From: Actinomortierella ambigua
Taxonomy: Eukaryota; Mortierellomycota; Mortierellomycetes; Mortierellales; Mortierellaceae
Assembly: GCA_016098155.1 (NCBI GenBank)
Contig: JAAAJB010000312.1
Location: 1 to 41,634 of the forward strand
Direction: 5' to 3'
Length of the DNA stretch: 41,634 nt
Shown: positions 2,415 to 39,566 of the stretch, in pieces
Layout of the letters: each line of letters begins with the position of its first letter
How positions within the stretch are numbered: the first letter of the stretch is position 1
Notes under the pieces: generated by a model
What the model was told of the DNA's origin: nothing
What the model saw: only the letters and a program-made list of their open reading frames with translations
Databases searched by the model: none
Made by a program: the position numbers and the translations under genes

Positions 2415-4204
2415 GTTGGGTTATTCAAAGTAGAGGGTAGAGTGCAGAGTGCAAGGGTGTGGAGTGTCAGGTTTGAAAAAAGAAAAAAAGTGGGCAAAGG
2501 CCTTCTTTGGCCGAAAATGTGACATGGGTCTGCATAATGGAAAAGTTCGCGTCACCACTTATCTCCTATCTCATTGGCCGTACACTGGGAAGTGGGAATG
2601 GACATCGAGAGGAGGTATAAACCACAGGTAGAGAACAAAGAAGAGATTTTTTTTTTTTAAAAAAAACCCCCCTGAAGAGCTTCACTGAGTCAAACGCTCT
2701 AGCGGTCTCCAGGTCGGTGTCTGTTCGGCATCTCTATGGTGCAAACCTTGCGGCAAGGGGCCCGTTTTATCTGCCCTGCGATTTTTTTCCGTGTGCACGT
2801 GGCAGCCTAAACACTGAACAGTCACGCCAAGAACGATTACAAATTGGATTCAAGTGGCAATTTTTTCTTTCTCCTCTTTCCCTCACACCTTTTCCTTTCA
2901 CACACCCTTTCACACACCCTTTCCATGCTTGCTGAGGCGCGAGTGTGTTAAATCGTGCGAAAGCACGGTACCGCGGGATCCTAATCTTGGGACCTGCGGC
3001 GACCGCTCAGCCTCAGCATGCGACAGCCAGACCGCCATTAGGCGGCCTGGTCTTTTCGTAACGGCGGTAGCTGCTTTGCAGCCCTCCTCTAGACTTCATC
3101 TGGAGCTAGAGTGGGAGTTGTTCGAAAGGACCTGCTTGGTGCTGGGCCTCCCAAGGTCATGGAGCACCAAGAGGGCTGTCTTCTTTCTTTCCCTCTCTGC
3201 CTTTATCTCTCACTCTGTCTCTCTTGCAGTCTCAACCTGTCTCTGCCTGCCTATGTCTCTCCCTCTAATATTCTCTCTCATACCACACGCATTGATTCTC
3301 CTCACACACTCTCTCTCCTATCACACCCGCACACTCTCTCCCACACGCACACTCTCTCCCACACGCACACTCTCTCCCACACGCACACTCTCTCCTCTTA
3401 CACTCATATGCACATTCTCTCTTTTTCTGTTTTCTGTTTCTTAAGCTCTTTTATCTCTATCTCTCTAACTCTCTCTTTCTCTCGTACTCTCTGCCCCTGC
3501 ATGCAAATAACAGAGTGGAAGACAAATAGCTACGACTGGATGCATCCGAACCTTTTCATCCTGTTATTCCTTCTTCGCTTCCTCTCCCTCTTCGTCTCCT
3601 TCCATCGCACTCCTCCTTGTCATCCGCCTTCATTCCTTCTTCGTCCTCTTCCTCCTTTCAGTCGTCACACTCTTCATCGTTATCCTCATCCTCATCCTCC
3701 CCTCATTTGTAATATAAATATTTTTTTAAGAAACATGTAAACGATTGTTTTGTACAGCCTTATGTGCGTGTGTGATGTAGGTGTGGGTGTGGTTGTATGT
3801 AAAGAGTAAGAGATATGAGATAGTCTTTTTTTGGCGTCTAAATAACGGGTAGGCTTCGTTGTATACTGGTATGCAAAAATGAGATCGCACACACTATCTT
3901 TCCTAACTATCTCTCTTTCCTCACTCTCTTTCTCTTTCCCCACGGTCCTTCCTCTCTCCTTCCTCTCTCTTTCTCTCCCTCTTTCGTCTCTCCCATTCAC
4001 TGCGACCCTTCACGACATCCTCCATAAGCACACCCTCGACCCGATCAGCACATCCCTCCATCACTATCACATCTCTCCATCGCCATCACCGCAACCTCGA
4101 TTCCCATCACGAGATCATTTCCTCTTTGAGAGGGTTGGAAGTTGAGCCTATCCAGGGCCCTTTACGCGGCCATAGGAAAACCATCAACAACCAAGCAGCT
4201 CTCG
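2415..4204. other. non-coding, low-complexity spacer
   Basis: No gene is supported on either strand. From about 3180 to 3700 the plus strand is strongly pyrimidine-rich (CT runs), and several overlapping open frames there are only Ser/Leu/Pro-rich shadows. A second CT-rich block lies at 3890-4000. The open frame leading into 4205 begins after a stop at 4127-4129 and may include extra 5' coding sequence of the next gene. Confidence 0.7.
3327..3396. repeat. 18-bp minisatellite, three to four units
   Basis: An 18-base unit alternating CACAC and CTCTC parts (containing CACACTCTCTCCCACACG) repeats in tandem three to four times, inside a longer CT-rich region. It has no coding support. Confidence 0.85.
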
Positions 4205-7200
4205 ATGGCCTGCAGCAATCAGGCAAAACACCAAAGAACTCCGCCCCCGTCCATACCAAAGCTGTTTTCTACCCGCCAACGCTGCGGCTATCAAGCGCTA
4301 AGGGCCACAATAGCAAGAGAATTAAAAAGTGAAAGGTCAATTGCTGTAAATGTTTATGACGACGAGTTTGTGCGGTTAATGTACCACTGGGTCAATGTGT
4401 TGATAGTGAGTAATCTGCAGCGAGGATATGGTATCGTGATTAGACATCAGAACCTCACTTACTTCATCCCACACTTACATATCATCCACTCCTCTTTTTT
4501 ATTATGTTGCATACACATACTCAGCATGGCACAAAAAGGTCTCGTATGCCTAGCACTCCTACCACAAGTGGCTTTAGCATGGCTATCGACGTCACTTCTG
4601 CTTGCATGGTGGCACAAAAGTATTGACATGGTGAGCACATGTACATCTCGGCTTGCAATGCAATCGCTTCCGCAATCTTTCGAGACTTCGATTCCATGAA
4701 GGTAAATCCATGCGCGCTGATGGTTCATCTTCGGAAGTGTCAATGTTGAAAACGTCCGATCGTTAACTGAATGTGATCATTCCATTCTCATGTGGCTCCA
4801 TAATAGAAAATTCGTTTCAACGATATAAACAACCCTATCCGAGGCAGGACAACGCCTGCTACACCTTACCCTACCACGCAAGTAAGAACCACCGCAGGCT
4901 CCGGATCACAAGGCCCAAGCGGAGGAGCCTCTTATGTGTCAGAGCAGCGCTCACAGGTATGAAATGACATATTGGGCCGAGGAATATAGAGGAAGTTTTT
5001 TTTTTTTTTTTTTGCGACGTGTAACTAACTTGACTTTTACATGGTGTTGGGCAGGCTTCAGCAGGACGCGAGACAAATCCGCATCAGCACGAACCAGGCG
5101 TGGGTTCCTCAGCGGGGGCTCGTGAGAAGGTTAGAGACTGCTTTGAAGACAGCCATTTTACTGCAGTGCGCGCTATTGCAAGACACTCATATTCCAATCA
5201 ACTTTGCTCAAACTCTGATTCTCTAGCAATTCAGGCCCGCATCGTTTGTCGTCTGGTCCGACGCGGAGTACCGTGCGCTCCCGGAGGCTCAACGACTTCA
5301 AAACTGTGTGCGGTACCTCCGTCAAAATAACTTCACTATTGCCACTTTTTTTCTGGCCATTTTCACCACGGACTTGTCCGAGGTGAAGGCTGAAGCAAAC
5401 AAGTTCCTCCATCACAAGAAGCACGAGCTGGTGATGCGCGCCTGGTGGAATAGAATCGGCGAGATGTTACTGCTAGGTGACATGTTCGAGACGGCGCTCG
5501 ACGTTGTCACAGGTGTAGCACGCGGCGAACTTCGTGCTCTGTCTCAAGACACCCAATTCCGCCAGCCGGCCACCAAAGTCACCTGTGCCAGGATGGAGGA
5601 AGTCTCATTGCCCTCACTCTGGCACCAGTTCGAGTCGGCGGCACCTACCCTCGTTTACATTTTGTGTCAATTGCTCGGGTGGTCTACCTCAAGCCAGCTA
5701 AACAAGAGACTTGGCACTGGGAAGCAAAGCGACAAGGCAGGCAAAGGGAAGCGCCTTACACCACATGCCCGGGGCATACAGGAGCTTGAGAGGCGCCAAA
5801 ACCTTTTGAGCCAGGCTAATATCGACACTCGGTTTCAGGAGCCTTGCGACGGCGATCCAACCCTTCTCACAACACTAGGCATGCTGATGTTCAGGACCAG
5901 TAGGGAGTCCAATCTCCTTCAAGTCGTCATGGGGCTCTATCTCAAGAGCTCCCGCTGTCCCCAGCGCCCCATCCAACTTCTCGCTGCCGCTGGTTTGTCT
6001 GTGTCGCCATGGACCATTCATGATATCCTAAGGACGCTCGGCCAGGACGCACAGAGGCGAGCTCAAGAGGCCGCCAAAACATCTGCCGTCCTCGTCGCTT
6101 TTGACAACTTTGAGATATTCGAACAAGCGTACGATCAAGGCCCCGAGAGACGAGACAGATTGTTTCATGGAGCCACAGCAACATTGATCAAGTATGGCGG
6201 TACGACACCTGTCGCTCGTGAGACACCAATCTACCGCCATCCAGTCTTCCCTCGCCCAACTGGACATCACTTTTTGGTCGATTGCACTGATGGCGCCTTT
6301 AAAGGGACTATCAAGTTCCACATTCTCGATGTCCTCAAGCGCCACACTGATGCGACCAAGGGTTGGGATATACAGCCTAGAGTCGTCAATAAGCTTCCTG
6401 TTGAGAAGACGGAGGCTTATCCATTGCCAGCCATGGCGCACAACCAATCCACGCTGGAAGGATTGCGTGATACCGTCGAGGAAATCATTGACAACGTCGG
6501 TTTGGATCGGACGCTTCTAGGCGACGACAAACTCCTTTTGGCCGGCGACCTTTTCACAGTTGACCGCTTGCGCATTCTCACGCGCTTGCGGTCCGAGGAC
6601 GTGTCGCCCTACGACCGTCTAGAATGGGCGATTCCTGTCTTTCAACTCTTTCACCTACAAATGGCAATACGTAATGCTATCCTGAGCACACACTGGGGTG
6701 GCTGCAACATTCCAGGTTCACTCGCGTATCTGGTGAAAAGCACGGGCCGCCGTCGCGTCAACAACATCGGAAAATCCGACCACCATGCCGCCGATCAGTT
6801 TTTGAAACACACGTTTGACGGCATGATTTTGCATTTGTGGGAGGTCGACCAAGCAGGTCGTCCTGAACCACCAGAGACAGGAGCCGACGACGACGCTTCA
6901 CTTCGTAGGGCAAGTCTGGAGGAATTTACCAACAATCTTTTCCACAACATGCACGACCAGGCTTGGCTGGGTTCAAGAAGAAGCGTCGACAGAAACGCGC
7001 TGCTCTTTCTACGCGATACGGCTATATATATCGAGCTCGGCGCGAGCATTCAGGCTGGCGACATTGGACGGTTAACGGAGATCCTTGAGATTGCCACTGT
7101 CATGATGCAGGCAACAGGACGGCAGAAGTATGCGTTGGAGCTACTTCGACTGACGTACCTAATGCGCCATGCCTGGACAGATGAGTGGAAGAAAGCAGTG

Positions 7201-10055
7201 CTCTCCAGCATGCTGGTGAATCCCAACGGCTTCAAGGACTCATGGATACCGACAGACCTCTACCAGGAGCACAACAATTTCTACACCAAAGAGATCTACG
7301 CCCCCAAAAACTCAAACAACTCGTGGAGATACCTGGCCAATATCTCTTGTCTTGCTCGCCTCCTTCCCGACTTGAAGAGAAGATTTGAGAAATCATACGG
7401 AGTCTCATACAACAGCAACTTCCACGCTTACACCACTGCTATCAAGGACGTCGTAAACATCAAGCAGATTTTTGACCGAGTTGGCGTTCTAGGCCATACT
7501 GCCCCCCCGCGAGACCAGGCACTCAACCTGAAGCATGAGGAGGTGCAGGACCTACTCCGTACTGGCAATGAGAAGATAATGGCACCGGATGGAATCAAGT
7601 CTTTTTTGAGCGTTTTTGACATGGACTTTCAACCAAGGCAGCAACCGATGCAGACATCCGTCCAAGTGGATTCAGCGGATGTTGACTTCTATGTCAGCTT
7701 TGCCGTTATCGCCTCCTATCTTCTCGTTCTCCTGATTCACGGTTTACGAAAAGGCTTTAAACCAGCCAACAATCCATTCGTGGTGCCCCCGATTGCAGCG
7801 CCGGTGAGTATTATAAGCCGATATATTAATCTAATCCCTTGCTTGATCCTTCTCCTACCAGCTAACATAACTTATCCTTTTTTTTTTTTTTTTTTTGGAA
7901 ACGTTCTAGGCGCCAATGACATTTGAGAAACATGAGGCGGTCCAGGTGTGCGAGAACCGGCTTGGACACAGACTGAGAGACCATCAATTAGACGTTGCAG
8001 AGTCCATATTTCAGGGTGGTGATTGTTTCTTAATCGCACCTTGCGGTTATGGGAAGTCCGATTGCTTCTTCATCCCATTGATTCTGTGGGATGACCGCAG
8101 CATTCTGATCATCGCGCCGCTAAAATCCATAATGCAACAACATCACAGAGTAAGACAAGGTGGAGGATCAAGAGTGATTGAATGCAATAGTGTCCCCAAT
8201 TTGGTCGCTGATCTAATCCAATCATTATTTCACTTTGCGCTCAAAGACGCTGTCCCGCCTTCTAATACCTAGCATCATTCTTCAAAAAGGCGTTTATATG
8301 AGTTCTGCAGTGATGGACATGTTGACAACAGGGGTGATTCGGGCGATCATAACAACGCCGGAATACATCTTTGAGAACAAGGTGTTCAGGACCCTGTGGG
8401 ACTCAAAGCCTTGGAGAACACGCTTGATTGCAGTGGTGCTGGATGAAGCGCATTGTGCGCTTGACTGGGGCGACACGTTCCGTCCCTTGTACAACCGTCT
8501 CGGAGATCTCCGCACGCTAACATCGGTCCCCATGGTCTCGGTTTCAGCAACTCTGGCTCCCAAAGATGTTCTAGATCTGAAGCAGAAGCTCCACCTACAA
8601 TCCAACGCATTGGTCATCAACATCGGGAACAACAGACCAAATGTGTACTTGGAGGTGCGACGACTCCCCAGATTGTCGATTGAGGGCCTCCGTTTCATCC
8701 TTGACTCAACGAAGACAATCGTCTACGTGGACAAAAGGATTTCGGCGATCGAGATTTTGCGCTTCCTCCTTGCGGTCGATCCTGGCAAGAAGGGCAAGAT
8801 TGCCGTTTACCACTCGCTGATGACGGACGCCTACAAGGAAAGGACCATGAGGCGCTTTGCACAAGGCGAGATCATAGTACTGATCTCAACAGAGGCAGCT
8901 GGTATGGGCTGCGATCTCCGGGATGTTGGCAGGGTCGTCCAGTTCAAATGTCACAAGACCACCAACATGTCAACACTCGTTCAGCGTCTCGGTCGAGCGG
9001 CACGGGATCCTTCAACTCAAGGAGAGGCCATCATTCTCTCGACAGGATTGTCAAAACCTGATTGCCGCTATGTTGAGCGCTTTCTTTCAGGAACAGAGTG
9101 CATGAGAGCAGTCATCAACGAGTATTTCAACAACCCACCGGAAGAACAAAATGCTCACACAAGCCGCTGCTGCAGTTTTTGTGAGAACAAGCGGCAATCG
9201 AAGGGCCAACTGCTGGAGTCATCATCTTCTGTACACCTGGATTCGCCTGAGTTCGCTGGTCCGTCCGGCTTGGCGGAATCATCCGATGCTCCAGACCGTC
9301 TAGATCTTAACAGTCCATTGGAACTTCTTGACTCCCTAGACCCTGCAGACAGTCAAGAGCTATCTCGTTGGCTATCCATGAAGACTGTGTACAAGTTTTA
9401 TGGCCCTGCCAAGGAAAAGAAGAAGATGGCGAAGGAGAAGATTTTGCGCTGGAGAGACATTTTATTCGACACCCATATAAGGATGCAAATACCGTGGGCA
9501 GTAGCCAGTTTTGTTATGGACGACAAGACTGTTGACAAGGTAGTCCGAATGATGTTGCAGGGACAGTCGCCCCATGTTATCGTATCTCGTCTCCCTGAAT
9601 GGTTTTACCTCCACAAGTATGGCGACAAATTTGCCGAGTTTCTCGGCACACTGCAGGAGGGATCACCAAAACTGTCGCTCCCATCACTACCATCGACAGG
9701 ATCGTCAGCACGAAATACGGCGCACCATCTTTTTAGGCGCTCCTTGAAGCGATCGGCACCGCTCTCCTCGATTCCCCCTCCTGATGGTGCAGCCATGTGG
9801 AAACGACACTTGAAAAGGATGCAGGATGACACGGATGACGAGGAGGAATCTGCCGAGCCTACGGAGCCCTTGACCATGGGGCGCAGGGTATTAAGGACGA
9901 CGCAGCCATACACAGATGCTCTTCAATTGAACGAAGGGCTATTCAGCGGCGAAGATGTACTAAGCGATGACGATGGCAAAGATGACGATGAATATCTTCC
10001 TCATGCCGAGTTCTATTCCGACTTCGACGATGATTCAGAAGAAGATTGGGATTGA
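4205..10055 (+). CDS. DUF6589-type domain fused to RecQ-family helicase, about 1701 aa
   Basis: Model: join(4205..4405, 4525..4619, 4848..4956, 5055..5129, 5227..7803, 7910..8149, 8247..10055); every junction keeps phase. The large exon (residues 161-1019) resembles the fungal DUF6589 family: an Asp-Asn pair (D453), a Gly-Asp-Leu-Phe-Thr motif (D601) followed by a His-Leu-Gln-Met stretch, and an Asp-Leu-Tyr-Gln-Glu-His motif (E841). These acids could be an RNase H-like DDE triad; that is inference. The intron 7804-7909 (GTGAGT donor, GCTAAC branch, TTCTAG acceptor) joins it in phase 0 to a RecQ-type helicase. The helicase has Walker A Cys-Gly-Tyr-Gly-Lys-Ser (K1068), DEAH (D1165), a Ser-Ala-Thr motif III, motif VI Gln-Arg-Leu-Gly-Arg (from Q1345), a Cys-rich zinc-binding segment and an acidic tail. 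A hydrophobic stretch lies near residues 979-1002. Exons 1-4 are the least certain part, and the third intron has alternative sites. An unspliced reading gives two adjacent proteins instead. Likely a mobile-element or subtelomere-type gene. Confidence 0.7.
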
Positions 10056-10152
10056 AGTCGTCCTACCCTACCCTCTACTATGCAGTCATCTATACTTGCG
10101 GAGATAAAATGAAGGCGATTAGCGCCATGTTGGTCCTTGCTTGAAGAGCAAT

Positions 10153-10182
10153 AGACAGGTGGGCCTACTCCACCTGTTGTCT
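10153..10182. other. short stem-loop 100 bp after the helicase gene
   Basis: ACAGGTGG and CCACCTGT form a perfect 8-bp stem around a 7-base loop (GCCTACT). The stem can extend with a small bulge (AGAC / GTCT). It lies about 100 bases past the stop codon. It may be a 3'-end structure of the transcript or of a mobile element. No target-site duplication was identified next to it. Confidence 0.5.
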
Positions 10183-10576
10183 TTCAACACCACTGATCAA
10201 AGTTCTTTATTGTGGTTCATAGTTCTACTGTATCGACCAGTCTTGATGTGAGATGAGGACCTCTGCAGCGTCTCCTCCAGTGATCCGGCCTGAGTCGTCA
10301 GCCTTCCTCTCAAAGAACAAAGGAAATAAAAGGGGGGGGGGTGCAAATCGAACTTGTATTTCACACAAACAAAATGCATACTTCCTCCTTTCCTCCCTTC
10401 TCCTTTCCCCCCTTCCTCCACACATGATCATCTCACTCCATTTCCTTTCCCCGGACTCACATGCGTGTGTCAATCATCAGACCTCATTCCAGGAATGGGG
10501 TCTCCTGTCACTGACAGAACTTCTCTCTATCACGTAGCCCACTTTCACTACACTTTCACTACACTTTCACTCTCAA

Positions 10577-10622
10577 GCACACACGCACACACGCACACAC
10601 GCACACACGCACACACACACAC
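10577..10622. repeat. CA / ACACGC microsatellite
   Basis: Tandem CACACG and CA units, directly after three copies of a CACTTTCACTA-like unit. Confidence 0.9.
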
Positions 10623-11411
10623 ATTCAACACGCACAGACCCATATCTGCCAATGAAAATGATGTCGCGCTTCTAAAACACCAAATAATAACGGCTTGCCA
10701 CAATAGCTTGGGAGACTCAGACTGACCCTTCTCCTCCTCTTCCATATTCTGCACACTTTGCGAGCCCCACCCTCCCATTCCAACACATCGCATCTTGGAG
10801 CGTCTCATGCGTCCCATAGAGAAGCATCCACCGCGGCGTACATTCACGCCTTACCGCTGGCCAGCAGTTCAACCCCCCCCCCCCCCCCCCAAAAAAAAGT
10901 GGGCCTTGTAGCGCCTTTCGCCATCCCAAACGCGAAATCTTTCTCAGAGAAGGCCACCTCACGCAAACGCTCCAAAGTGGATCGTAATTCCACTTTTCTC
11001 TCCCCCCCCCCTCCCTCTCCCTTCGCAAGAAAACCAAAAACGCGTCGGCACAAACCTGAAGAGGCTGATGCTGGTTGGAGCTCAGACAGTTCGTGCCAAG
11101 AACAAATTTGATGTTGAACAAAGCCATCAATGAGGGGTGGGATTGAGATAAAATCCTATCAAGCATCGATGATGGTGACAATTGTTTTAGCAACCTGGAA
11201 TCCTGCCAGATCTCTTATTCCTGCACCCCCACCCCCCGTGCTTGTTTGGCTAGACGCGAATAGAAATCCTGTTTTTATAATCATACAAATGCATGTATAA
11301 CTGCTGCTAGACATAATATGCGGTACTGTCAAGTGAGCTCCCTCCCTCACAGGTTCATCTGAGGATGTTGGACTTGGCTAGCCCTCTGCTCAGTCGCTCT
11401 GATAGACTGCT

Positions 11412-11449
<38 letters not shown>
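11412..11449. repeat. CT microsatellite
   Basis: An uninterrupted CT dinucleotide run of nearly 40 bases. Confidence 0.95.
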
Positions 11450-11452
<3 letters not shown>

Positions 11453-11910
11453 TAGTTAGTTATCCCTCGATGCACAGAACTGCGACAGAATGGAGATGGC
11501 TCAAAGATGTGGGCCCTCCCATTCAGTCGCTACCTTTGCTGCTAAGCCAACAGTTCATGCACGCCCCCCAAAGCACAAAGGGGAGGGGGCGGCGGCGGAG
11601 GAAGAAAACATTCATGAACGATTTTGTTTTTGGCAAAGACTACAGACAGGGACATGGATGTATTTTAAGGAAGGAGAGGATCTGTCTCTGAGGAGCTAGG
11701 TTGTGCGTCAATGCCAATGTGTCGTTTTGCAACCCACTGTGCTATTCCACCCCCAACTGTTTTTGCAGTGTAGACTGACGTATATGTCAGGTTCCCCGTA
11801 GAATGGTCCTCCCCCCCCCCCATGCGTGCAGTTCCAACGAACTAGGATGAGGCCACTTCGTCAGCCAATTGTTTGAACCCACCTTTGGGCAACTGTATTG
11901 TCGGTGTTGT

Positions 11911-12327
11911 CTACGCTTGATCCAAGTCCGAGTATGGCGGAGCAAGATCCAAGTCTGTGGGAGTAGTACTTCTCGGCTGGAAGTTCCAAAAACTGGTGGC
12001 GGAGGAATTTGACACACATGTTCGCTTCGCCTCGGGCTGCATACATGGACTCAAAGTTGATAAACCGTGGATGACCGAACCGGATTGGTGTGCAGCATAT
12101 AATCACGATATGTACAGCCAGGAAGATTCTGACCAGCCAAAGGATAATAGGGAAGTCTATATTGACCATTCGATAGCGTAGGAAAGGATAGAGCCAACAA
12201 TGATGAAAAGAATGTCGAGGTTGGCAAACGAGAAGGCGGCTTGAAAGAGAAAGATGATGAAGAAGGTCTTTGTCGTTATCTTCTCCACCATAGCGAGAGC
12301 CTCCAAGGTGGGAGCCTCCATCTTCAT
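11911..12327 (-). pseudogene. possible damaged multi-pass membrane-protein gene
   Basis: An ATG at 12327 (minus) opens a 56-codon frame that stops at 12157. It has a polar start, then two hydrophobic segments that look like membrane helices. The neighbouring frame continues across 12180-11990 with another strongly hydrophobic helix. A third frame ends at a stop at 11911-11913 with an acidic, proline-containing tail typical of a C-terminus. No pair of GT-AG sites joins the three frames cleanly, so I read this as one gene of about 130-140 residues (MARVEL-like size and layout, by inference) broken by small indels. A gene with unusual introns remains possible. The family is not recognised. Confidence 0.35.
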
Positions 12328-12685
12328 GGACTTTAAATGAGGCGAGAATGAATAGATATATTTGTGAGAAACAAAGAGAAGTGGAGTTGTTCGTGAAATT
12401 CAGAAAAGAGCAGAGGAATGGAAGAAAATGCATTTCTATCGAGTGAATGACTGGGATAAATAGTTTTCAGTGTCCTGCGATGAACAAGGTCACATATAGG
12501 TACCAGTTACCTTTTTTACTATTGGCAAATTTGGTCGATTTTTGGCTATTCTGGGATCTGAACATGCATGACTCAAAGGCAGTATTATCTTTGAACGCGT
12601 GAACAAGGTGGCCGGGCAAGATGCCAGCAGTACTGTGCTGAGTCCTCCCCTTTTCATTTTGCTTTACGCTTACATACATGGAGAT

Positions 12686-13767: not shown

Positions 13768-14726
13768 GGCGCCTCACAAGGCTGGGTCGTTAAGACTGAT
13801 TTCTCAACTCTCCATCTCACAAGCCTTGCTTATGTCAGTCTTATGCATGTACACGACAGGGTGAATCCACGCCCTCCAATCAGCGCTTCTCTTCCAATCA
13901 GGAGATGCCTCGGTATTCTCTAGCAGTGCAGCAAACATCCCTTGCATCAGGGGTTGTATCACGGTTTTGTGTAAAGGAGTGCTTCCCCCTCCATCCTTCC
14001 ATCTTCGCTATCATTTCCCACCCGACTCAAAACATTTACATACCGCGTCCCTTTCATGCCTGTTGACGATATAGATGATTTACAGGCACTACAAGCCGAA
14101 AAATTTGAGAGCTTTATCTATGGCATCAATTGACAAGGCTGGATTGTCTCAAAGTGGGAAGAGTCTGTGTCACTCTAACGAAAAGGCTGTTAAAGCGGCC
14201 GCTCTCGGATTAGCCAATCCATCATGATGTTCAGCACTCATTTTAGGTAGGAATCTACCATATCCAGGTGGGGGTACTGTAGTCAGCAAAGTTTCATTTA
14301 CACCCTTGTTTTAGGTGGGGGGCTGATGAATGCGGTAATGTCGTTGAGCTCTTCTCTCCTTGCATGCCTGAAATCGCACTATGGAATGTCTTCTCTCCAG
14401 TGGCCCGGGCCATCTGTAAGTTCGAGCAGTGCACATGTTCTGTTCGCTGGTCCAGATCATTTCAAGTACACCTTTGACGTAAAGAGTTTCACCAGCATGA
14501 GGCAAAGGGAGACGATACCAAAAAAAAAAAAAAAATCGCTCACGCAGGAGGGGACACTTTTGAGGAGGGTTCGCGCCTTCGATACAGAGGGCGGGCACTC
14601 AAGTTAGTGTGCATGCGAGACGTAGGAGTGTGCAGGAAAACTGCTGGGGTGGTACGCATTGTAGCGATTGGTTGGATTCAATACCATGTCGCCAGCTACA
14701 GGCAGTCAGGAACATCTCTGCTTCTA
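13768..14726. other. spacer without a supported gene
   Basis: I find no coding exon, RNA gene or clear repeat here apart from short homopolymers (an A run at 14520-14535). The open frames present lack convincing composition or splice sites. Confidence 0.6.
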
Positions 14727-14930
14727 CCATGAGGTGCCTTGGTCTAACGATGGCGTACTCTCACCATGTCAGGATACCCACGATTCAGGGGCTTCCTAAT
14801 TTGCCATTCCATCCGCAGGTCGGATATAAAAAGGGTAGTGGTTTCTGCCTGACTTTCCATCCACCAATCGATCATCGCCCATCTCCTCTACTCCTCACTC
14901 AACCCCCTGCCTTCTCAAACATTCTCCACG
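14727..14930 (+). promoter_or_regulatory. promoter of the small secreted protein, copy 1
   Basis: About 200 bases upstream of the start at 14931 are nearly identical to 16446-16641 in front of the second copy. A TATA-like element (GATATAAAAAGG) lies about 110 bases before the ATG, followed by a pyrimidine-rich leader, which is a common fungal promoter layout. The conserved block begins abruptly at TATGAGGTGCCTTGG-like sequence; upstream of it the two copies are unrelated. Confidence 0.65.
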
Positions 14931-15371
14931 ATGCGTCCCTTCCTCGGTTGTCTCCTGGTGGCTGTTCTCCCAGCTGCTTTGTTCGCCAGTCCAGAGCCTT
15001 TCTGTGAGGACAAGATCTCCCGCACCGGACGCCTCTTTGGCCGCCCCGCCCACCATGGCCTTCAGCAACAACTCCCTGGCTTGTTACATATTATAAACTC
15101 GGACCTTTACGGAGAACTATACATGGACACTGAGTGGTATATCCGAGGACACTTCCGGGGCTTGATTACTGAGAGAGCAAAGTACCTCTACGATTTGACA
15201 TACACGTTCAACGAGCCCAAGGATCTTCATGGTTCTTTCCAAGCCACATTTTCAGGAGGCCGGATCTTGATCAAGTGGAACAAGTCAGGCGCAACCATCA
15301 CGGGCGGAACTAATCTTCCCGACAGAACGGTCTGGGGCATGAGCTGGTTGTGGGATAACACTAACGAATAG
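14931..15371 (+). CDS. small secreted protein, 146 aa
   Basis: An intron-less frame starts at the ATG after a TATA box and CT-rich leader. The first about 20 residues form a classic signal peptide: a Met-Arg start, a hydrophobic core, then Ala-Leu-Phe-Ala-Ser as a probable cleavage site. The mature protein is about 125 residues, with a conserved Phe-Cys-Glu-Asp-Lys segment near the N-terminus and a C-terminal half rich in Trp, Tyr and Gly that looks beta-rich. There is only one Cys after the signal, so no disulfide pair within the chain. I do not recognise the family. The protein is presumably exported. A broken duplicate lies 1.7 kb downstream, indicating a small local family. Confidence 0.75.
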   Translation: MRPFLGCLLVAVLPAALFASPEPFCEDKISRTGRLFGRPAHHGLQQQLPGLLHIINSDLYGELYMDTEWYIRGHFRGLITERAKYLYDLTYTFNEPKDLHGSFQATFSGGRILIKWNKSGATITGGTNLPDRTVWGMSWLWDNTNE

Positions 15372-15422
15372 TAAGCACCCCCTTTGCCCTCTGTAGCTCT
15401 CCTACACTTGATCCTATATTAT

Positions 15423-16148
15423 CTATTTTGGGTCACCGCGTTCTTTATTTGTTTTAAGATCTCTTATACACTCTCGACTCCCGATATTTGTTCTCAGACT
15501 TCTTTCAACACAATATTCCAAGTACCACAATAAAATGCAACGCAAGGTAAACACATGCGAAGCTTCAACAGGAACGCTCATGAAAATAAAAATAGACCCT
15601 TGTAGGGATTCTCGCTTCACAGCTTTGGCCACCTTCTCTGGTCGCGAAATATAAAAACTAAGCTCGACAGTGCTAAAGTCCAGACCGATCGGGTTGTTTG
15701 CCCTTGGCAGATGAAAGGTGTCAACAATGGACAGAATGTCCATAATATTAGCCTTAGGATATTCAATGCAGATAGATTGGCAGCGAACGCGAGAAAAAAC
15801 AAGGTGTGTGCGCTACATACCCCAAATGAAAAGATTCGTTAGCAGCCCATGCTCAGACTCGCCCTATCATGATTCAGGCGAGGTGGTGCCGGCACTCGCA
15901 TCAGGCGAGACATGTCATATACAGGTGGAGAAATCCAGTCAGCGAGGCTGCATTCATCTCAATGTTACTGCTCTCTTCGTAAGCGTCGGTGGCATCTGTC
16001 TGGACTCACAATGTATTCTGTGCTCATCTCTCAAACCCAAGACTGCATCGGACAATGACAAGATGTCTTGTCCTTCCTGCGATAAAGAGGTATCAGCTAC
16101 TGTCGATTGAGTTTCTGGCGCCCCAAAATATGCGCTATACGTAGACAT
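15423..16148 (-). CDS. hypothetical protein, two exons, about 189 aa
   Basis: The model is join(16148..15969, 15812..15423) on the minus strand. Exon 1 starts at an ATG and has a Ser/Thr/Gln-rich composition. The intron has a GTAACA donor, a GCTAAC branch site and a TATGTAG acceptor and is in phase 0. A stronger-looking GTGAGT donor exists slightly upstream but leads to a stop soon after the junction. Exon 2 encodes a soluble segment and ends convergently only 52 bases from the stop of the secreted-protein gene. I recognise no domain. The upstream half of exon 1 lies in the region before the second secreted-protein copy. It could be a gene fragment. Confidence 0.4.
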
Positions 16149-16445
16149 GCATGAAAACTATGGGTCCGCATAGTGCCACTCTCGGGTTTAAGGCCTCCGT
16201 CCTCACGAAACTGCTGCTAAAAGCATTTCTTGCACACTTTTCGCGTCACTACATGGTGGTTGTGGCATTTGAGCGCTCCTAGGCACCAGAATAATGTAAA
16301 ATGCATGACATACGAGGGGTCTACTTAATGTGGCACATGGGGCTGACACCGGTTCAAGCGATATCGCGTTTTTGAACGATTCGCGGCGTCCAGGGTGTTC
16401 ATGTCGGCCCCATGGTGCCGCTCCTATCCAAACGTCTCCCTCAGC

Positions 16446-16641
16446 TATGAGGTGCCTTGGTTTAACGATGGCGTACTCTCACCATGCCAAGATACCCACG
16501 ATTCAGGGGCTTCCTAATTTGCCATCCCATCCGCAGATCAGATAAAAAAAGGGTAGTACCTGACTTTCCAGCCACCAATCGATCATCGCCCATCTCCTCT
16601 ACTTCTCACTCAACCCCTCTGCCTCTCAAACATTCTCCACG
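16446..16641 (+). promoter_or_regulatory. duplicated promoter, copy 2
   Basis: Nearly the same about 200-base block as 14727-14930, including the TATA-like element (GATAAAAAAAGGG, about 100 bases before the ATG) and the CT-rich leader. It drives, or once drove, the broken second copy of the secreted-protein gene. Confidence 0.6.
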
Positions 16642-17089
16642 ATGCGTCCCTTCCTCGGTTGTCTCCTGGTGGCTGTTCTCCCAGCTGCTTTGTTCGCCAG
16701 TCCAGAGCCTTTCTGTGAAGACAAGATCTCCCGCACCGGACACCTCTTTGGCCGCCCCGCCTACTATGACCTTCAGCAACAACTCCCAGGCTTCCTAAGT
16801 ATCGCAGAGAGGCAGTTTTACGGAGCAGTAGAAGTGGGAACTTCATTGGAACATCGATGGAGATTTCGACGAGGAGGTTGCTGGCTATCCAACCTACCAT
16901 TCGGGTTTAATATACAAATCCGACTTGCTCAAGGATTTTGAGGGTCCTTTCGAAGCCACGTTTAAACGAGGCAAGGTCTTGCTCGAGTGGCCCGAGTCAG
17001 GCGCATCCATCCAGGGCCCAAGTCCGCTTGACGACAAAAGGTCTGGGGCGTGGCCCGTGCTCAATATGGAGGCTAGAAGAACATACTAG
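16642..17089 (+). pseudogene. second copy of the small secreted-protein gene, frameshifted
   Basis: The first about 45 codons match the gene at 14931 almost exactly, including the whole signal peptide. After the Phe-Tyr-Gly motif (16818-16826) one extra base near 16843-16846 shifts the frame, so the direct reading ends at 16941 after 99 residues. In the shifted frame similarity to copy 1 resumes and runs to a stop at 17087-17089. A further single-base loss near 17038 relative to copy 1 is also visible. Similarity in the second half is much lower than in the first, so the copies have either diverged unevenly or been partly homogenised. A truncated but secreted 99-aa product is possible. Confidence 0.7.
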
Positions 17090-17540
17090 AATTTTGGCCA
17101 AGTCACAATGTGTTTCCCACAGGTGCAGGCGAAAACCCATCTTCACTACCAGAGGACATCACATACAAACACCTTTGAGTGTGAGTGTTTTGCCAGCAGG
17201 AGGGGTAGGTTCTGAATACCCGATTTCTCAGGGTATCTTAGAAGGCTATCTATCTTCAATAGGTCAGGGTTGCCGCAGAGGACGCAAACAAGTTTGAGAA
17301 AATTTAGCTCGACCAACCCCTTTCCAACGCGTGTCCATACTCATATACAGAAACAGAATATTGCAACGTGACAGATTCTCTTTGGCCACAGCAAACCTTA
17401 AAAACAAGCCCTTTATATTGTTCTCTTTCTTTCCCTTTTCATCTTGTCTCTTGCCTAGCTCTCCTCACTTACCGTTCAATTCTTCAAAAGCAACTATACA
17501 CGATCAAAACAAGAACCAAAAAAAAAGGCTTCATATAACG

Positions 17541-27508: not shown

Positions 27509-29601
27509 ATGCCACCAAAGAAAAAGCCTGCGACCAACAAGGCCAAGCGCCAGGCCATGGACAGCATGACCCCAATCACCCACCTCAGCCAGTCAAGAAA
27601 CCCAAAAAAGTTTGTCAACCCAAAGGCGCAGAAGACCAATGACGAGATCAAGCCCAAGGAAAAGAGCGAGATCGAACTCGAGAGCTTGATCTTCGGCGAC
27701 CAGGACGATGCTCTCGCCAAGATTGGCCGAGAGCTGAGCAGCGACGAGGAACCCGACGACGATGAAGATGATGTTCATGAGCAAGAAGGAGACGACCAGG
27801 CTGGCGGATTCGTATTGGATTTGGGCGGCACCCCCGCTGGACCCGGTGCAGGCGATGGAGCCGATCTGTTCTTCATGGACACTGGCCCCACCCCTACCTT
27901 CCACCCTAGCGACAGCGAGGATGACGAAGATGATCTGGAGCGAAAGGGCGTCAGTTCGGACGAAGAGTCGGAGGATGTCAAGCTAACAGGTAAGCACCTC
28001 TTTTCTTCTCGACTCTCCTGTCCCGGTCGATATTCGCTTTTTATATATTTCTTAATTCATGTTTATTCTCTCTTTGTTGTCATCGTGGTTGATGGACCAA
28101 ACTACCATGTCCTCGTAATTAACATCGCTTCTCTTCCTTTGTTTTCTTGACACTACTAGAAATTTATGGAGGCAAGCCGGCATGGGTGGATGAGGATGAC
28201 AAGAACTTGGTGGTGTCGCTGAAATCTGTGAATCGCCTCAAGAAGCTTCGCAAAGCTGAGGAAGAAGACGTTGTTTCTGGTGTGGATTACGAACAGCGGT
28301 TGAGGAGACAGTACGTTTTCGCTGTGGCATGATGCTGCGTGTCGGTGTTTTATCAACCTTTCAACCATTGCGCTCTACAATGCACTCTTGACTGATTATT
28401 TTTCTTCTTCTTCTTCATCATCTCCCTATGATATCCTTCATCAAATAGATTTGAAAAGATTTATCCCGTACCAAGCTGGGCACAACCAGAAGGCAAGCGG
28501 AAGCGTGGACGTGGCGCACTTGATCGCGGATCAGACTCAGAGTACTCGGACGAGGAATCAGAGGAGGAGGACAACTCATTCTTGTCGACCAGCAAAGGCT
28601 TCTTGGAAAAGTCGACTCGTCTGCGCATTCTTCCCAGCGAGTCCATTTCGATGACGCGTGTCAAGAACGCCAACCAGATGGCTTACTCGCAAGCCGTGGT
28701 ACAGTCGGTCGAGTTCCATCCCAACTCGCAGATGCTCTTGACTGCTGGATTTGACCGCACGCTCCGCCTCTTCCAGATCGATGGCAAGCTCAACCAAATG
28801 GTGCAGTCGGTCTTCTTCAAAGACATGCCGATCTACAAGGCACTCTTTTCACCCACAGGATCGTCCATCGTCTCGTCGGGCCGGAGAAAGTACTTCTATA
28901 CCTATGATATCGAGGCGGGCAAGGTTGAAAAGAGCCAAGGCATCTATGGACGTCAGGAAAAGTCTTTGGAAAAGTTTACGCTCTCGCCTTGTGGCAAGTG
29001 GATTGCCTTCTTGGGACGCGATGGATATATTGTCTTGGTTTCGTACCAGACACGACAGTGGTACAAGAATCTCAAGATGAACGGAAACGTGCGAGCAGTG
29101 GCATGGTCATCGGATGGTGCCCACCTCTACTCGATCGGTGTTGACTGCGAGGTCTATCAGTGGGAGGTCAGCACAGGCAAGTGCCTGCATCGGTTCTTTG
29201 ACGATGGTGGATTCAAGCCCACGTGTCTGGCTGTCTCGCCAGATAACAAGTTCTTTGCTGTTGGATCCAAGAGCGGCGTTGTCAACGTGTACGACCAGGC
29301 GTGCTTAAAGTCGGCCCACCCAAAACCTCTGCGAGCGATCGGCAACTTGACAACAGCAATCAACGTTATGCGCTTCAACCACGATTCTCAAATCTTGGCC
29401 ATTGCGTCCAAGGGCCGCAAGGATCAGCTCAAGCTGGTGCACATCCCTTCGCTCAAAGTGTTCCCCAACTGGCCCACCAAGGGCACACCGCTGTCATACG
29501 TAACCTGCCTAACCTTCTCCCCTCGGAGTGGATACTTGGCCATAGGTAACGACAAGGGCAAGGTACTCCTCTACCGCCTCAACCACTACGCATCTGCATA
29601 A
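27509..29601 (+). CDS. UTP18: U3 snoRNA-associated WD40 protein Utp18, three exons, 594 aa
   Basis: Model: join(27509..27989, 28160..28310, 28449..29601). Donors GTAAGC and GTACGT, acceptors CTACTAG and AAATAG, all in phase. Utp18 belongs to the small-subunit processome (UtpB module) that assembles on U3 snoRNA and 18S pre-rRNA in the nucleolus. The N-terminal third is disordered, with a Lys-rich start and acidic Asp/Glu runs. It contains the conserved Phe-Gly-Asp-X-Asp-Asp segment, then the Ala-Trp-Val-Asp-Glu-Asp-Asp motif and an Arg-X-Arg-Arg-Gln-Phe-Glu-Lys stretch typical of the family. The C-terminal part (about residues 260-594) is a WD40 beta-propeller with blade-like repeats (Val-Glu-Phe-His-Pro, Phe-Asp-Arg-Thr-Leu-Arg-Leu-Phe, Ile-Gly-Asn-Asp-Lys-Gly). 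The length matches yeast Utp18. A CT-rich leader precedes the ATG. Confidence 0.92.
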
Positions 29602-33700: not shown

Positions 33701-36700
33701 TCATTGTTCAAGTTTGGCCTGCATCGAGATGCTGCCCTTCAGATCCTATCGTGCATCGAGTGCTTCTTGGCATGGATTCGGTCAGATGCTGCCGCTGACA
33801 TGACTGAACAGGCGAGGGCTGAGGCTAGGGTCACTTTGGCGAAGCGCTACGAAGTCCTGGCTATTTGTCACTCTGCCCAAAATAATCACAAGGTAAGAAT
33901 TAACAAAGTTGGATAGAGAGGATTCGAACAGCTCCGACATAAAGCTCATCACACAGTCTTTGCTTTCAATGTACGAATTATAGGACGCCCTTGACGCACT
34001 TGATTCGGGACTGTGCGCCCTTCCTCTAGAGGAGTACCAAAAGCTGCACAGCCACCTCATTTCAGGATATACCAACCATGCACAACTCCCAATAGCTGCA
34101 CAACTTTTAGACCGTCGCACTCGGACGTTGTTGCTTGACCTTGTTCGATTCGACTCTTTCACCAACTCTATGGCTGTGGGTGAGCTCTCACCTCCTCCCT
34201 CGCTCGATGTTATTGGTTTAATCCAAGAGTTTGAGTCAAGCGTCCTTCAGCTGTTGAGTGTCAAAGCGGACTGTCGGCAGATATGTATCCAGCACCTCCG
34301 CTCGATCGCCGACAAAACGTATCGGGGAGGCAGCCATATCCAGTTCCCGATAAGGCGAGCCAGGGTTCTAATTGCGCTGGCGTCACTTCTCCAAAGTTCT
34401 ACGGCTGAAAACATGAGGTCGCAGTCTGCTTCTCTTGCCAGTGAGGCCGTTGAAACACTCAAAACCAAGGTAAAGTACCTTGACATTTTCAGAGGTCACC
34501 GAGGCACACCATTTGTAAGATGGAAGGTATTTCAGCTAACAAGAAGAAAGCGTACCTGTTTGTTTTAATAGAGCCTAGCCAGTGATGTCGACTTGCATAG
34601 CTTTCAGAGCCACTACCTAGCCTTCGCCTATACTTGGCTTGGCATCTTGCAGCCAAATCTAGATGGATCTGCCCAAAAATCAAAGCCTTTTCAGATTGCA
34701 CTGCAGCTTTGGGAGTCTATCTTGGCAGACGTAGAGTGCTTCACTACTGTGGCTGATGCTGCTACCGAGGCGAGTCGGCTCAAAGCGCAGGCGGCTTCGT
34801 CGATGATTGCAGACACAGAGCAGCTGGTGTGCCACCTGCAATTGCTTGCTGACTACCTTGGCATGATCGGTCAGCAGGTTATGCAGGTCCATGTATATAT
34901 GCTTATCTTGAAGATGACCAACAGTGTTGTGAATTCCGATCCTCAGAGCTGCTGCTGTAAGTGGGTATCGCCGATATGAACCTGTCTTGACAGATGCCCA
35001 TGATGCTCATGTCGCTAATGAATAATGCACTACTCTCTGAAACTAGCTGATGCCGTCCGGACATACATCAAAATAAGTCAATCGTATCTCGCCTTAGGCT
35101 ATTCGGGCAAAGCCAAGATTGCTCTGGACCAAGGCAAAGAGATCCTTGAAGAGCTCAAGCGGGACAGTGGCGACGGCTCCCAAAGCAACGGTGGCCTATA
35201 TGGTGGATATGGCGAACTATATGCAAATTGGCTTCTTGCATACAGTCTCTACATGAGCACTCTTGGTCATAAAAAGCAGGGTATCCAGGCATACAACGAG
35301 GCCGCGATGTACTCGGCAAGCCAGGACTCGATTCAACACAATCTCAACCCTCGATCTCACGCTGGGTTGGCGCCAGCTGGTCGAAGGCCTCGTGACCCTG
35401 CCTTGTCAAAATCAACCGAGATGAAAATTCGCAAGACAGTGATCCTAGCCGAAGCATCTTTGGCCCGTTCATATCTACAGTACAATGAGGTATGTCCTTT
35501 GAATTTTGAAAACATTCACGGTGGGCCATGTGTCATGGTGTCGCGGCTTTCCTTAACGCCTCTTTCACTTTTCATTTTTTATTTATTTACGTGATTAGGG
35601 CAATCTGTCAGAGGCGATACCCGACGCCATGAGATCTCTCCGTCAGCTCAGCACTATTGTGACCACTCTGGTGAAGGCTTCAGAGCGTCCCTCGACCAGC
35701 GGTTCTGTGAAGCGGGAACCCGAGAACCCGTTCATGCGCAAGAGTAGTAGCACTATGTATCAACCACAAGGACTCGGAGTGGCCACAAAACCTAGTAACC
35801 AACAAGGATCTAACAGTCAACTTCAAAAGGAGCTCGAGGTATTGGCTCATCAACGCCACCAGTGGCAAGTCTTCCGCCTGCTGATCGAGACCTTCCACCA
35901 TCTCGCAAGACTTTATCTTTCACAGGGATGTGCTCGAGAGGCTGAATACTTTCTGCAAGAAGGAAAGGCGGTGGCGAAGCTGTCTCGCGCGAGTCGGCAT
36001 GTTGACCGATTGTTACTCAAGCAGGCCGCTTTCTCCCTGCGTAAGCACGAATGGGAGGAGACCCATGGTATTTTAAACTCTTTAACACAGCGGGACGACC
36101 ATGTAAGTGTTGGCGTAAAGAGACTCGGATAGGAGTAGAAATGTCGAATGTATTGACGATCAAACTCACATTCTTTCCTTGTTTGAAACTCGTTTTCATG
36201 ATAATAGACTTCTTTGGCCCTTGATCTTCGAGATGCCTGCGTCCAGTTGTGTTTTGGAGACCTGTATCACCAAACTGGCAACTTGGAGCGATCGTTGCGT
36301 GCATATGTGCGAACCGATGAGATTCTTACTCACCTCATGGACAAGGAGTTTATCGCGAAACTGGAACGGATGGTTATCAAGTAAGTGGCTTGAACTTTTT
36401 TCGTTTCTTGTGCCTTGACGTTCACGTCGATCATTGGACAGAGTAAGCTAATTCCTACGTCTTCTTTCCATGGCTGTTACCTACGTCTTCCGCTAGAGAG
36501 CCACAAACTCCACGAGAGAAAAAACTGACGCATCAGGTACGAACTCGGTCGCAGAAGGGCTCACTCCTGCCGCAGAAGAGTGCCTCACAATACGAGTGTA
36601 TGACGATGAGCCGAATGAAGGCGAGATGTGGATACAGGAAGGCGCTAGTTCAAGGCGAGACGCTGCAGCGAGCAGAAGCAGCCAGAACCATTGAAGACGC

Positions 36701-39566
36701 TTGCCAGGTACATCCCATGGCGGACAAGTCGATCGAGTACCACCATGTTAAGGCGAAGGTGCTGATGATGGAGCTCCAAGGCCTCATGTCGAAGCATATC
36801 ATTCTGGCTATGGTGCCAGAGTCGGTGCTCGGTGTGGGTCTGGTTCGTCGACTAGTCAGCGCGACGTCTCCACCGCTTTCCATACCGTCTTCATCAGCAG
36901 TCGCGACCTCGCAGGCGATAACCCTTTCAAACCCGACTTCTCGCAGCGGGCGAGTCACTCGGTCAGCCCGAGGCTCGTCACGCTCTCACAACAATGCCGC
37001 TCCAGATCGCCAGGAGGGGTACATTCAGGTCCTCCAACAGGCGAAGTGGCACTTGGATGAAGCCTATCGACTTGCAGTCAAGGGATCTCCGCCGCACATC
37101 GTATCGGATATTTGCACCCGGCAGGCCTTCCTATCACTCATGGAGTCTTGCTTGCATCAGGATCTCTTTAAAGTCACAAACCCCATGCTATTGGGTGGAG
37201 TTGGCTCCGATTCACTGTCCCCCTTATCCGCTTTCATTTCCCCGTCGCGCCCGACCAATGTAAGCACCAAAGAGGCCATCGATCGCCATTATCGACGGCT
37301 CGCGAGTAGGACATCGTTCTTTCTTGAGCTATCCAAGGGTATCACGCAGAGGCGCGAGTTGTACAACATGGTCCGTGGCAAGCTTCATCCGACTTTGCCG
37401 CAGGAAGACTTTGCTTGGCCGAGTGCGATCAAACCTCCGCTTGTGCAACAGGCGAGACTTGAAGAAGGGACGCAAGCTGATGAGAACGATGATATGCAAC
37501 TTGACGTCGAAGAAGCCTCTATCCATGTCCCGGGCACACGATCCAAGTTCCTTCTCCAAGCCATGTCGACCTCCTCAGCCTTTGCATCGACATCAAACCA
37601 AATGGCCTACTTGAGGGCACTGGAGCAAGTATATGGCAAGGAACAGGATTTGCACATCTCTCACCAGCCGATCACTTCATCCGCAAACCCTTTTGTCACT
37701 TGCCAAAGTAACACGCCCTCGGTACCAGCACCGTCATCGAGAGCTTCTCTTACAGGGAAGCCAGTGGGCGACGCTGAGCCCTCTGACCAGTTCCTGTCAG
37801 ACTTTGTTGACATTTTGCCGTCCTCGTGGACTGTTGTTTCGCTCTCGATGGACATTGAGCGCGAGACGCTGTACGTGAACCGACTTCGAGCACATACCAT
37901 GCCTGTGATCCTCCAGCTTCCACTGACCCGTGTGAAGCAGCGAGCCGCTGACCATCCGGAGCCGCTCACGTATGATCTGGCGCTGGCGGAACTGGAAGAT
38001 ATTCTGAAGAACTCGAACGAGACGCTGCAGGCGGGGCAATCGCTAGTGACTCGAGAAGAGAAGCTTGCCTGGTGGGAGGCGCGCAAGGAGCTCGACGACC
38101 GGATGCACAACCTGCTACAGGTGATGCAGAACCATTGGCTCTGTGGTCTTCAGGGCGTGATCCAGTCACACAATACGCCCAGGAACGAAGAGCATCTGGA
38201 GCAGTTCAAGGCGAGCATGGAACGCTTGATGTTTTTGGCTGCTCATAGCCGACCATTGCCGAGCACGTTGGCCAGCTTGGGCAACAGTGTTGGTGGCTTT
38301 GGTGTTGGTGATGGATGGTCGCCAGAGGCTCCGACGACGAGGACGATGAGACGACCCGTGCGCTCGACCGCGACTACCAGTAAGCTCATGGCGATGTCTA
38401 AGGACAACCTCCAACAGCAACAGCAGCAGCAGGAGAAAACGCTTTTCCTGGAGATTGACAAGGAGATTTGTAGGATGATCCTCAACCTTGGCGACCAACC
38501 GGCAAATGACGAGTTGGAGGATGTGATTTATTTCTTACTGGATGCCTATCAGCACCACGGCGCCGTCTTTGAGTTTGCCGAGATTGACTTTTCGCGGATG
38601 GCTGCACTAATTCAGCAGGCGTTGGTGGCCTACTGGTTGGCAGAGACCGATCTCGGCAACGACGGCTTTGACAATGGCGCGCATGTGATCCTGATTCTCG
38701 ATAAACACCTGCAAATGTTCCCATGGGAGAACCTGCCGGTGCTGCGGGGTGAGGCCGTGTCACGCCTGCCATCGATTTGGTTCTTGAGGGATCGCATCCT
38801 TAGAAGTCAGGGGGTCGCTGAACAGCATGTCGCCACAGCCACAGCGGCGACAGGAGCGGCAGAGTCTCCATCAACATTGCCATTGGAGATGGAATATCAG
38901 GACACGCAAGAAGGCAGGCAGATCAAGCCAGTCAATGCATGGCGAGACCTCGAGGTGGATCCATCGAGTGCCTACTATATCCTCAACCCCGGCGGCGACC
39001 TTGCGCACACAGAACAAACGTTCCGCGACTATGTTGAGACGCAGCGAGGCTGGGATGGCGTGATCGGGCGTCGACCACTCGACCTTGAATGCGTGCAAGG
39101 ATTGTCCCAATCGGAGCTCTACATTTATTTCGGTCACTCGGGCGGCGAGCAGTATATCAAGAGCCACCAGATTCGACAGCTCTTGCCGACACGATGCTCC
39201 GTCTCGCTGTTGCTGGGTTGCTCGTCGGGAGTCTTGACATCCAAGGGCGAGTTTGATCCGTACGGCAACGTGCTCAACTACATCTTGGCCGGTTGCCCAA
39301 CGGTGGTAGCCAACCTGTGGGATGTGACGGACAAGGACATTGATCGGTTCAGCAAGGCCATGTTTACGGCATGGGGTCTTGACAACAACCGGACAACAAC
39401 AACAACGACGACGACGGCAACGACAATATCAGCCGAAGAGCCGCAACAGCAACAGCGGTTGTCGATTGTCGAGGCGGTCAAAGTGGCCAGGGGCGAGTGC
39501 AGGATGCCGTATCTTGTCGGTGCAGCCCCTGTTGTCTATGGCATTCCTTGCTTCTTGAAGCAATAA
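30775..39566 (+). CDS. ESP1: separase (Esp1/Cut1-type cysteine protease), twelve exons, about 2567 aa
   Basis: Model: join(30775..31560, 31682..32029, 32117..32270, 32369..32655, 32776..33019, 33069..33892, 33984..34469, 34572..34956, 35047..35489, 35599..36102, 36208..36380, 36497..39566); every junction is GT-AG and keeps phase. Separase cleaves the cohesin kleisin at anaphase onset and is held inactive by securin. The long N-terminal part is alpha-helical, repeat-like (ARM/TPR type), with a Ser/Thr-rich basic linker at about residues 95-205. The C-terminal protease (clan CD, C50) is clear: an Asp-Lys-X-Leu-Gln-X-Phe-Pro-Trp-Glu segment, the catalytic His in Phe-Gly-His-Ser-Gly-Gly (H2425), the catalytic Cys in Leu-Leu-Gly-Cys-Ser-Ser-Gly (C2453), and Asn-Leu-Trp-Asp-Val-Thr-Asp. 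Low-complexity inserts occur: poly-Gln before the protease domain and a Thr/Gln tract near the C-terminus. It is longer than yeast Esp1 (1630 aa). A stop directly before the ATG fixes the start unless a 5' exon exists. Confidence 0.9.

Follow-up and report, generated by a model that had tools for sequence, protein, structure and literature searches.

A probable transposon-derived chimera of a DUF6589 transposase-like domain and a RecQ-like helicase in a fungal contig

Results

The window analysed here is the whole stretch formed by bases 1-41634 of contig C238, one of the 846 contigs (33.8 Mb) of the genome that was searched. Between 5227 and 10055 on its forward strand, a reading frame with a DUF6589 domain is followed by a RecQ-like helicase. 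We consider it probable that the two form one gene, a transposon-derived chimera in which a DDE transposase of hAT/P-element fold precedes a superfamily 2 (SF2) RecQ-like helicase, and which represents the coding portion of a DNA transposon of very low copy number or else a domesticated gene. This reading is carried by a joined frame, the same gene model in an annotated protein of Actinomortierella ambigua, a conserved D/D/E triad to which the predicted fold corresponds, and the motifs of the helicase. The features are as follows, conservation being given for a DUF6589 alignment of 10 rows, all of whose members match PF20231.

5227..7803, +, exon 1: N-terminal region and DUF6589 (DDE transposase-like); 859 codons, PF20231 over residues 357-733, acceptor TCTCTAG at 5220-5226
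6103..6105, +, putative catalytic D293: D in 10/10 rows; end of the first RNase H-like strand (model strand 287-294)
6547..6549, +, putative catalytic D441 (GDxxT): D in 10/10 rows
6643..6654, +, QxxH signature site: Q473 and H476 invariant in 10/10 rows
7267..7269, +, putative catalytic E681 (TDxYQExNN): E in 9/9 rows with a residue; P0007 has a gap and P0028 is gappy nearby
7804..7909, +, predicted intron 1: 106 nt, phase 0; GTGAGT, branch-like CTAAC at 7862, TTCTAG
7910..8149, +, exon 2: RecQ motif 0 (LRxxQ), motifs I and Ia; needed for a full-length DEAD match
8045-8059, +, motif I GYGKS (APCGYGKS), in exon 2
8150..8246, +, predicted intron 2: 97 nt, phase 0; GTAAGA...CTAAT...CAAAG, branch-like sites at 8208 and 8213
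8247..10055, +, exon 3: remaining RecQ-like helicase with motifs III to VI, Cys cluster and acidic C-terminus; runs to the stop codon
8442-8453, +, DEAH, in exon 3

A probable single gene with two predicted introns

The original prediction described a DUF6589 frame at 5227-7803 that ends at a textbook intron and is joined in phase 0 to a RecQ-type helicase. Both parts of this description hold. The open frame is present (5227-7926, 899 codons), its part up to the donor site matches PF20231 with 305.6 bits (E 6e-91, gathering cut-off 27), the expected intron signals are in place, and the next exon carries motif I. A second intron, 8150-8246, was not mentioned at that time and is needed to complete the helicase. 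Its acceptor, CAAAG followed by ACG, puts the reading frame back, and is supported by the A. ambigua protein, which resumes at the matching spot (ELSLFKLQIPSII vs TLSRLLIPSII). The spliced product from 5227 is 1541 amino acids (aa) long with zero internal stops, so that the supported part is shorter than the 1700 aa first proposed. Further exons 5′ of 5227 are plausible given the acceptor-like TCTCTAG that ends at 5226; in the window, 4130-4699 matched zero Pfam families at E ≤ 0.01, and the A. ambigua model begins inside exon 1.

It is improbable that two neighbouring genes, or a chance read-through, have been taken for one. Retention of intron 1 would terminate the DUF6589 frame at 7926, an ATG opens the helicase frame at 7916, and unjoined DUF6589 proteins are the rule among relatives, all of which would suit separate genes. 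Against this, with a stop codon in the helicase frame at 7907-7909 and the first ATG only after it, the two unspliced frames would share 11 bases and neither a 3′ untranslated region (UTR) nor a promoter fits between them; the space does not accommodate a pair of ordinary genes. Together with the textbook phase-0 intron and the joined A. ambigua model, this makes a single transcript the simpler reading.

A strongly hydrophobic segment (7681..7746, +, residues 819-840) lies between the transposase and helicase portions, with a Kyte-Doolittle value of 2.24 over 19 residues; P0001, the A. ambigua protein, has one at the matching place (2.09). Of the 8 unjoined relatives, 7 (P0007 left out) have a weaker top hydrophobic window (1.22-1.88), which lies outside the tail. 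These roughly 20 residues form a helix in a low-confidence structure model. A membrane-helix-like stretch is odd for a DNA enzyme.

The DUF6589 core models as a transposase

Based on a structure model, the predicted fold of the DUF6589 domain is an RNase H-like core with a helical insertion, of the hAT/P-element type. The conserved acidic triad and this model support the DUF6589 core as a predicted hAT/P-element-type DDE transposase, in keeping with the possible nuclease or integrase originally suggested. With the first model, matches to the core strands included glucokinase and further actin-like folds; with the domain model these ranked under transposases. A search of exon 1 against NCBIfam returned nothing named, and no relative was found in viral contigs.

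The helicase is RecQ-like

When exons 2 and 3 are joined, the DEAD match reaches 79 bits over profile positions 2-165 of 167; based on 8274-10055 alone it is 27.7 bits over positions 94-165. The latter region also matches Helicase_C (59.6 bits), and WRN is its top match among PDB sequences (E 1.6e-22). For spliced residues 860-1256 (a 397-residue query) the best NCBIfam model listed is TIGR00614 recQ_fam (176.3 bits, E 9.8e-52), which falls under its cut-off of 219.8. By eye, what we take to be the defining RecQ motifs are intact in the spliced product, including motif 0, DEAH and the aromatic-rich loop AHCxxxWGxxFRPxYxxLGxLR. The Cys cluster matches RecQ_Zn_bind weakly (12.3 bits, under the cut-off of 25), and neither RQC nor HRDC was found at E ≤ 1 in the first 552 of the 682 helicase residues. 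C45 and C347 carry the nearest helicase relatives from the same genome among the matches listed (39-40% identity).

The same domain order in an A. ambigua protein

Relatives were sought in protein databases with about 8000 candidates scored in each search; a wider alignment search gained two proteins. Eight of the nine DUF6589 relatives carry a name, which we take to be Mortierellaceae, and one is nameless. The best relative of the gene comes from A. ambigua, also of that family, and the source of the window is probably a Mortierellaceae fungus. The A. ambigua protein BGZ73_008783 (P0001) is annotated as one protein of 1248 aa with PF20231, PF00270 and PF00271 in the same domain order as the window gene. 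Identity is 72% in the DUF6589 part and 60% in the helicase. By region, it is 76% and 78% in the catalytic parts, 51% in the linker and 53% in the helicase tail.

Observations that weigh against the chimera

Several results count against this interpretation. At the level of the gene model, splicing of both introns is predicted from sequence, and P0001 gives an incomplete counterpart: its annotated model is without the first 233 residues and without the motif I exon (4/80 residues aligned, no GKS/GKT), so that either the annotation is poor or the relative has a dead helicase. A helicase is joined in one of the nine database relatives and absent in eight. The two parts are therefore not always separate, as they would be were the fusion spurious; we read the union as a feature of a lineage and not a rule of the family. 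With regard to the transposase, the C/DxxH signature that lies between the second D and E in the hAT, P, MuDR, Kolobok and Dada group (PMC9587614; excerpt of PMC10045372) is replaced by QxxH in 10/10 rows, with the H kept and C/D changed to Q. Foldseek gave zero matches at E ≤ 0.001. The DUF6589 profile had 18 matches among PDB sequences, zero of them transposases (best E 0.19; the three alignments displayed are low-complexity), and it matched no transposase family in Pfam. With regard to mobility, neither terminal inverted repeats nor a target-site duplication emerged convincingly from a repeat search of 2600-12500 or from searches for TTAA pairs and 8-10 bp duplications, and one intact DUF6589 copy was found in the genome, the remaining loci found being fragments. 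Of the helicase-coupled mobile element originally proposed, one gene joining the two domains is supported, with a counterpart in A. ambigua, and its mobility is no more than plausible.

Element ends and flanking repeats

In the TTAA test, 7 x 3 pairs gave a best score of 2 compared with 1 to 3 in null regions; the ends may lie elsewhere. Exact direct repeats across the gene numbered 40 at 10 bp (16-25 in six null regions) and 110 at 9 bp (63-90), compared with null regions that are unmatched for the simple repeats around the gene. Inverted termini at these 9- and 10-bp repeats were no better than null. Two candidates were rejected. A 19-bp inverted pair (4115-4133/10306-10324, 16/19) beat 300/300 shuffles in a narrow region picked post hoc and 90/100 in a wider region; inspection by eye shows no duplication to go with it, and its left arm lies mostly in a repeat also found at C804. 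A 9-bp duplication candidate (4305/10698) scored 4, which was equalled by 2/6 null regions, and its right end is crossed by a dispersed repeat (C190, C580).

The gene is 4-10 kb from the start of C238, amid dispersed repeats. On the 5′ flank, 3992-4129 also occurs at C804; on the 3′ flank, stretches of 10579-12561 are dispersed repeats also found at C190, C580, C616 and C822.

Copies and helicase linkage across the genome

Genome-wide copy counts and helicase-match lists are lower bounds. At E ≤ 0.001, DUF6589 loci besides that in the window are on C131, C56, C664, C227 and C177, and E 0.01 adds two weak places (C106, C462). None of the first five loci is on the same contig as any match listed for the window helicase or PF00270. 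A DUF6589 relic on C45 (E 3e-10) adjoins a helicase, and a weak one on C535 (E 0.009) lies 17 bp away from a helicase fragment of 98 bp. Both were seen only in 14 stretches taken around helicase, DUF6589 and repeat matches (shuffled best E 0.51) and were not listed by the whole-genome searches; we do not claim a general association of DUF6589 with helicases across the genome.

On C535 (L025 1079-1734) the 98-bp stretch is 91% identical to window 8710-8807 and the relic protein is 38-43% identical, so by sequence the relic and the helicase piece would be neighbours of different age. L025 also holds an RVT_1 reverse transcriptase fragment and inverted near-identical peptides SLD(N/S)FSFAPIFTLITH (1243-1734 and 2697-3401), which suggests a rearranged retrotransposon. 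On C131 (L019 3390-6831) the N-terminal half of DUF6589 is present with the core missing, and about 0.5 kb on, on the same strand, is a Crinkler N-terminal frame (PF20147, E 3.6e-16). C465 (L027 4883-5815) has a stand-alone 311-aa frame like the helicase C-terminal tail (tblastn E 2e-11) that has no Pfam match.

Elsewhere in the window, ordinary genes include a separase (Peptidase_C50, E 4e-121) at 36447-39566 and a WD40 protein at 28432-29601, whose best Pfam match, the THOC3 propeller, is under its cut-off. Copies of the stretch 14000-17100 recur in the genome, several of them at 28-36 kb of C288 and others on C217, C135, C423 and C548.

Discussion

Alternative explanations

The chimera may be nothing more than an AcademH or KolobokH transposon of a lineage already named, with DUF6589 as the Pfam name of its transposase; we put this at a little short of an even chance. 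KolobokH has a RecQ helicase downstream of a DDD/E transposase and is found in fungi only (PMC9587614), and AcademH is helicase-encoding and, in an excerpt of PMC10799480, reported to occur at low copy number in Ascomycota, Basidiomycota and Mucoromycota, so that architecture and copy number fit. The QxxH signature speaks against the known lineages, and the stretch in which KolobokH would have its zinc finger is without a Cys conserved across DUF6589. Neither the TTAA-flanked termini nor a convincing 9-10 bp duplication was found in the searches described above. Moreover, the report from Mucoromycota may not cover Mortierellaceae, because NCBI taxonomy files this family under Mortierellomycota. 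It is also possible, if rather less than even, that the gene is an immobile, domesticated host gene that now serves the cell, for instance in DNA repair or repeat silencing. Its being the sole intact copy found, the retention of the joined gene in A. ambigua, the intact catalytic motifs and the lack of recovered termini are what domestication would leave; its setting among dispersed repeats near a contig end is not, and the conservation fits a low-copy transposon equally well.

The original prediction also offered telomere maintenance, with DUF6589 aiding a telomere-linked helicase at chromosome ends, and this we regard as very improbable. RecQ-like helicases are subtelomeric in a number of fungi (PMC7473861), and the window gene and its helicase paralogues on C45 and C347 are all near contig ends. 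In an assembly of this many contigs such ends need not be chromosome ends, and (TTAGGG)4 occurs nowhere in it, so the subtelomeric position cannot be judged; the subtelomeric helicases compared in that paper show no domain beyond the helicase core. Nothing else points to telomeres.

Working model and significance

If the gene is the proposed transposase-helicase chimera, we infer that its catalytic triad is active and that the transposase half would pair and cut the element ends and join them to a target. The tethered helicase might open the ends before cutting or, more likely, would drive synthesis-dependent repair of the donor gap, by which the element would be copied back. Synthesis-dependent repair of transposase-made gaps is greatly reduced in Drosophila Blm mutants (excerpt of PMC11042211), and a tethered RecQ-like motor could act at once in the role that Blm, a stand-alone RecQ, has in that repair. 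No finding here separates an end-opening from a gap-copying role. A more specific version, which we hold to be rather doubtful, takes the QxxH signature and the missing zinc finger to set DUF6589 apart from Kolobok and Academ, as the founder of a DNA-transposon lineage of its own to which RecQ was added independently, with intron 1 as a switch: retained, it would give the transposase alone (stop at 7926), and spliced, the transposase with the helicase in one protein. If this separate lineage is real, the union of a DDE transposase with RecQ would have arisen by convergence as a way to copy an element back into the donor gap.

The identity proposed from structure, a hAT/P-element-type DDE transposase, would be given to a Pfam family of unknown function, and fungal genes of this kind could then more readily be re-annotated as having come from transposons. 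In the literature collection searched, the term DUF6589 is in no paper and PF20231 appears only in one unrelated optics paper. A covalent transposase-helicase also makes it testable whether an element-borne RecQ motor, and not that of the host, decides copy-back into the donor gap.

Comparison with known systems

Hermes and the P element move by cut and paste. To our knowledge, neither the hAT (Hermes) nor the P-element transposase carries a helicase. The window gene resembles them in that its core is predicted to be RNase H-like with a helical insertion, in D-D-E order and in the H of the C/DxxH position; it differs in having QxxH and no sequence similarity to them in the PDB profile search. 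With fungal telomere-linked helicases it shares a RecQ-like core without a recognised RQC or HRDC, whereas those compared carry no further domain (PMC7473861) and the window gene has DUF6589.

The closest likeness in architecture is to KolobokH, in the order of DDD/E transposase and RecQ helicase. Almost all Kolobok transposases have a zinc finger between the second D and E (PMC9587614; the finger in KolobokH itself is taken from this general statement). In the corresponding stretch of DUF6589 no Cys column is conserved in the 10 rows, with 0 Cys in P0001, 0 in P0003 and 1 in the window, the signature is QxxH in place of C/DxxH, and no TTAA-flanked termini were found in the search described above. 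AcademH is likewise a fungal, low-copy transposon that encodes a helicase (excerpts of PMC10799480 and PMC10045372); its target-site duplication of 9-10 bp (excerpt of PMC10045372) has no convincing counterpart here, in a comparison made by description and not by transposase sequence. The pairing of a transposase with a helicase is thus already precedented in KolobokH (PMC9587614) and, in the excerpts cited, in AcademH, and the window gene looks like an unusual variant of a kind already known and not like a new kind of system.

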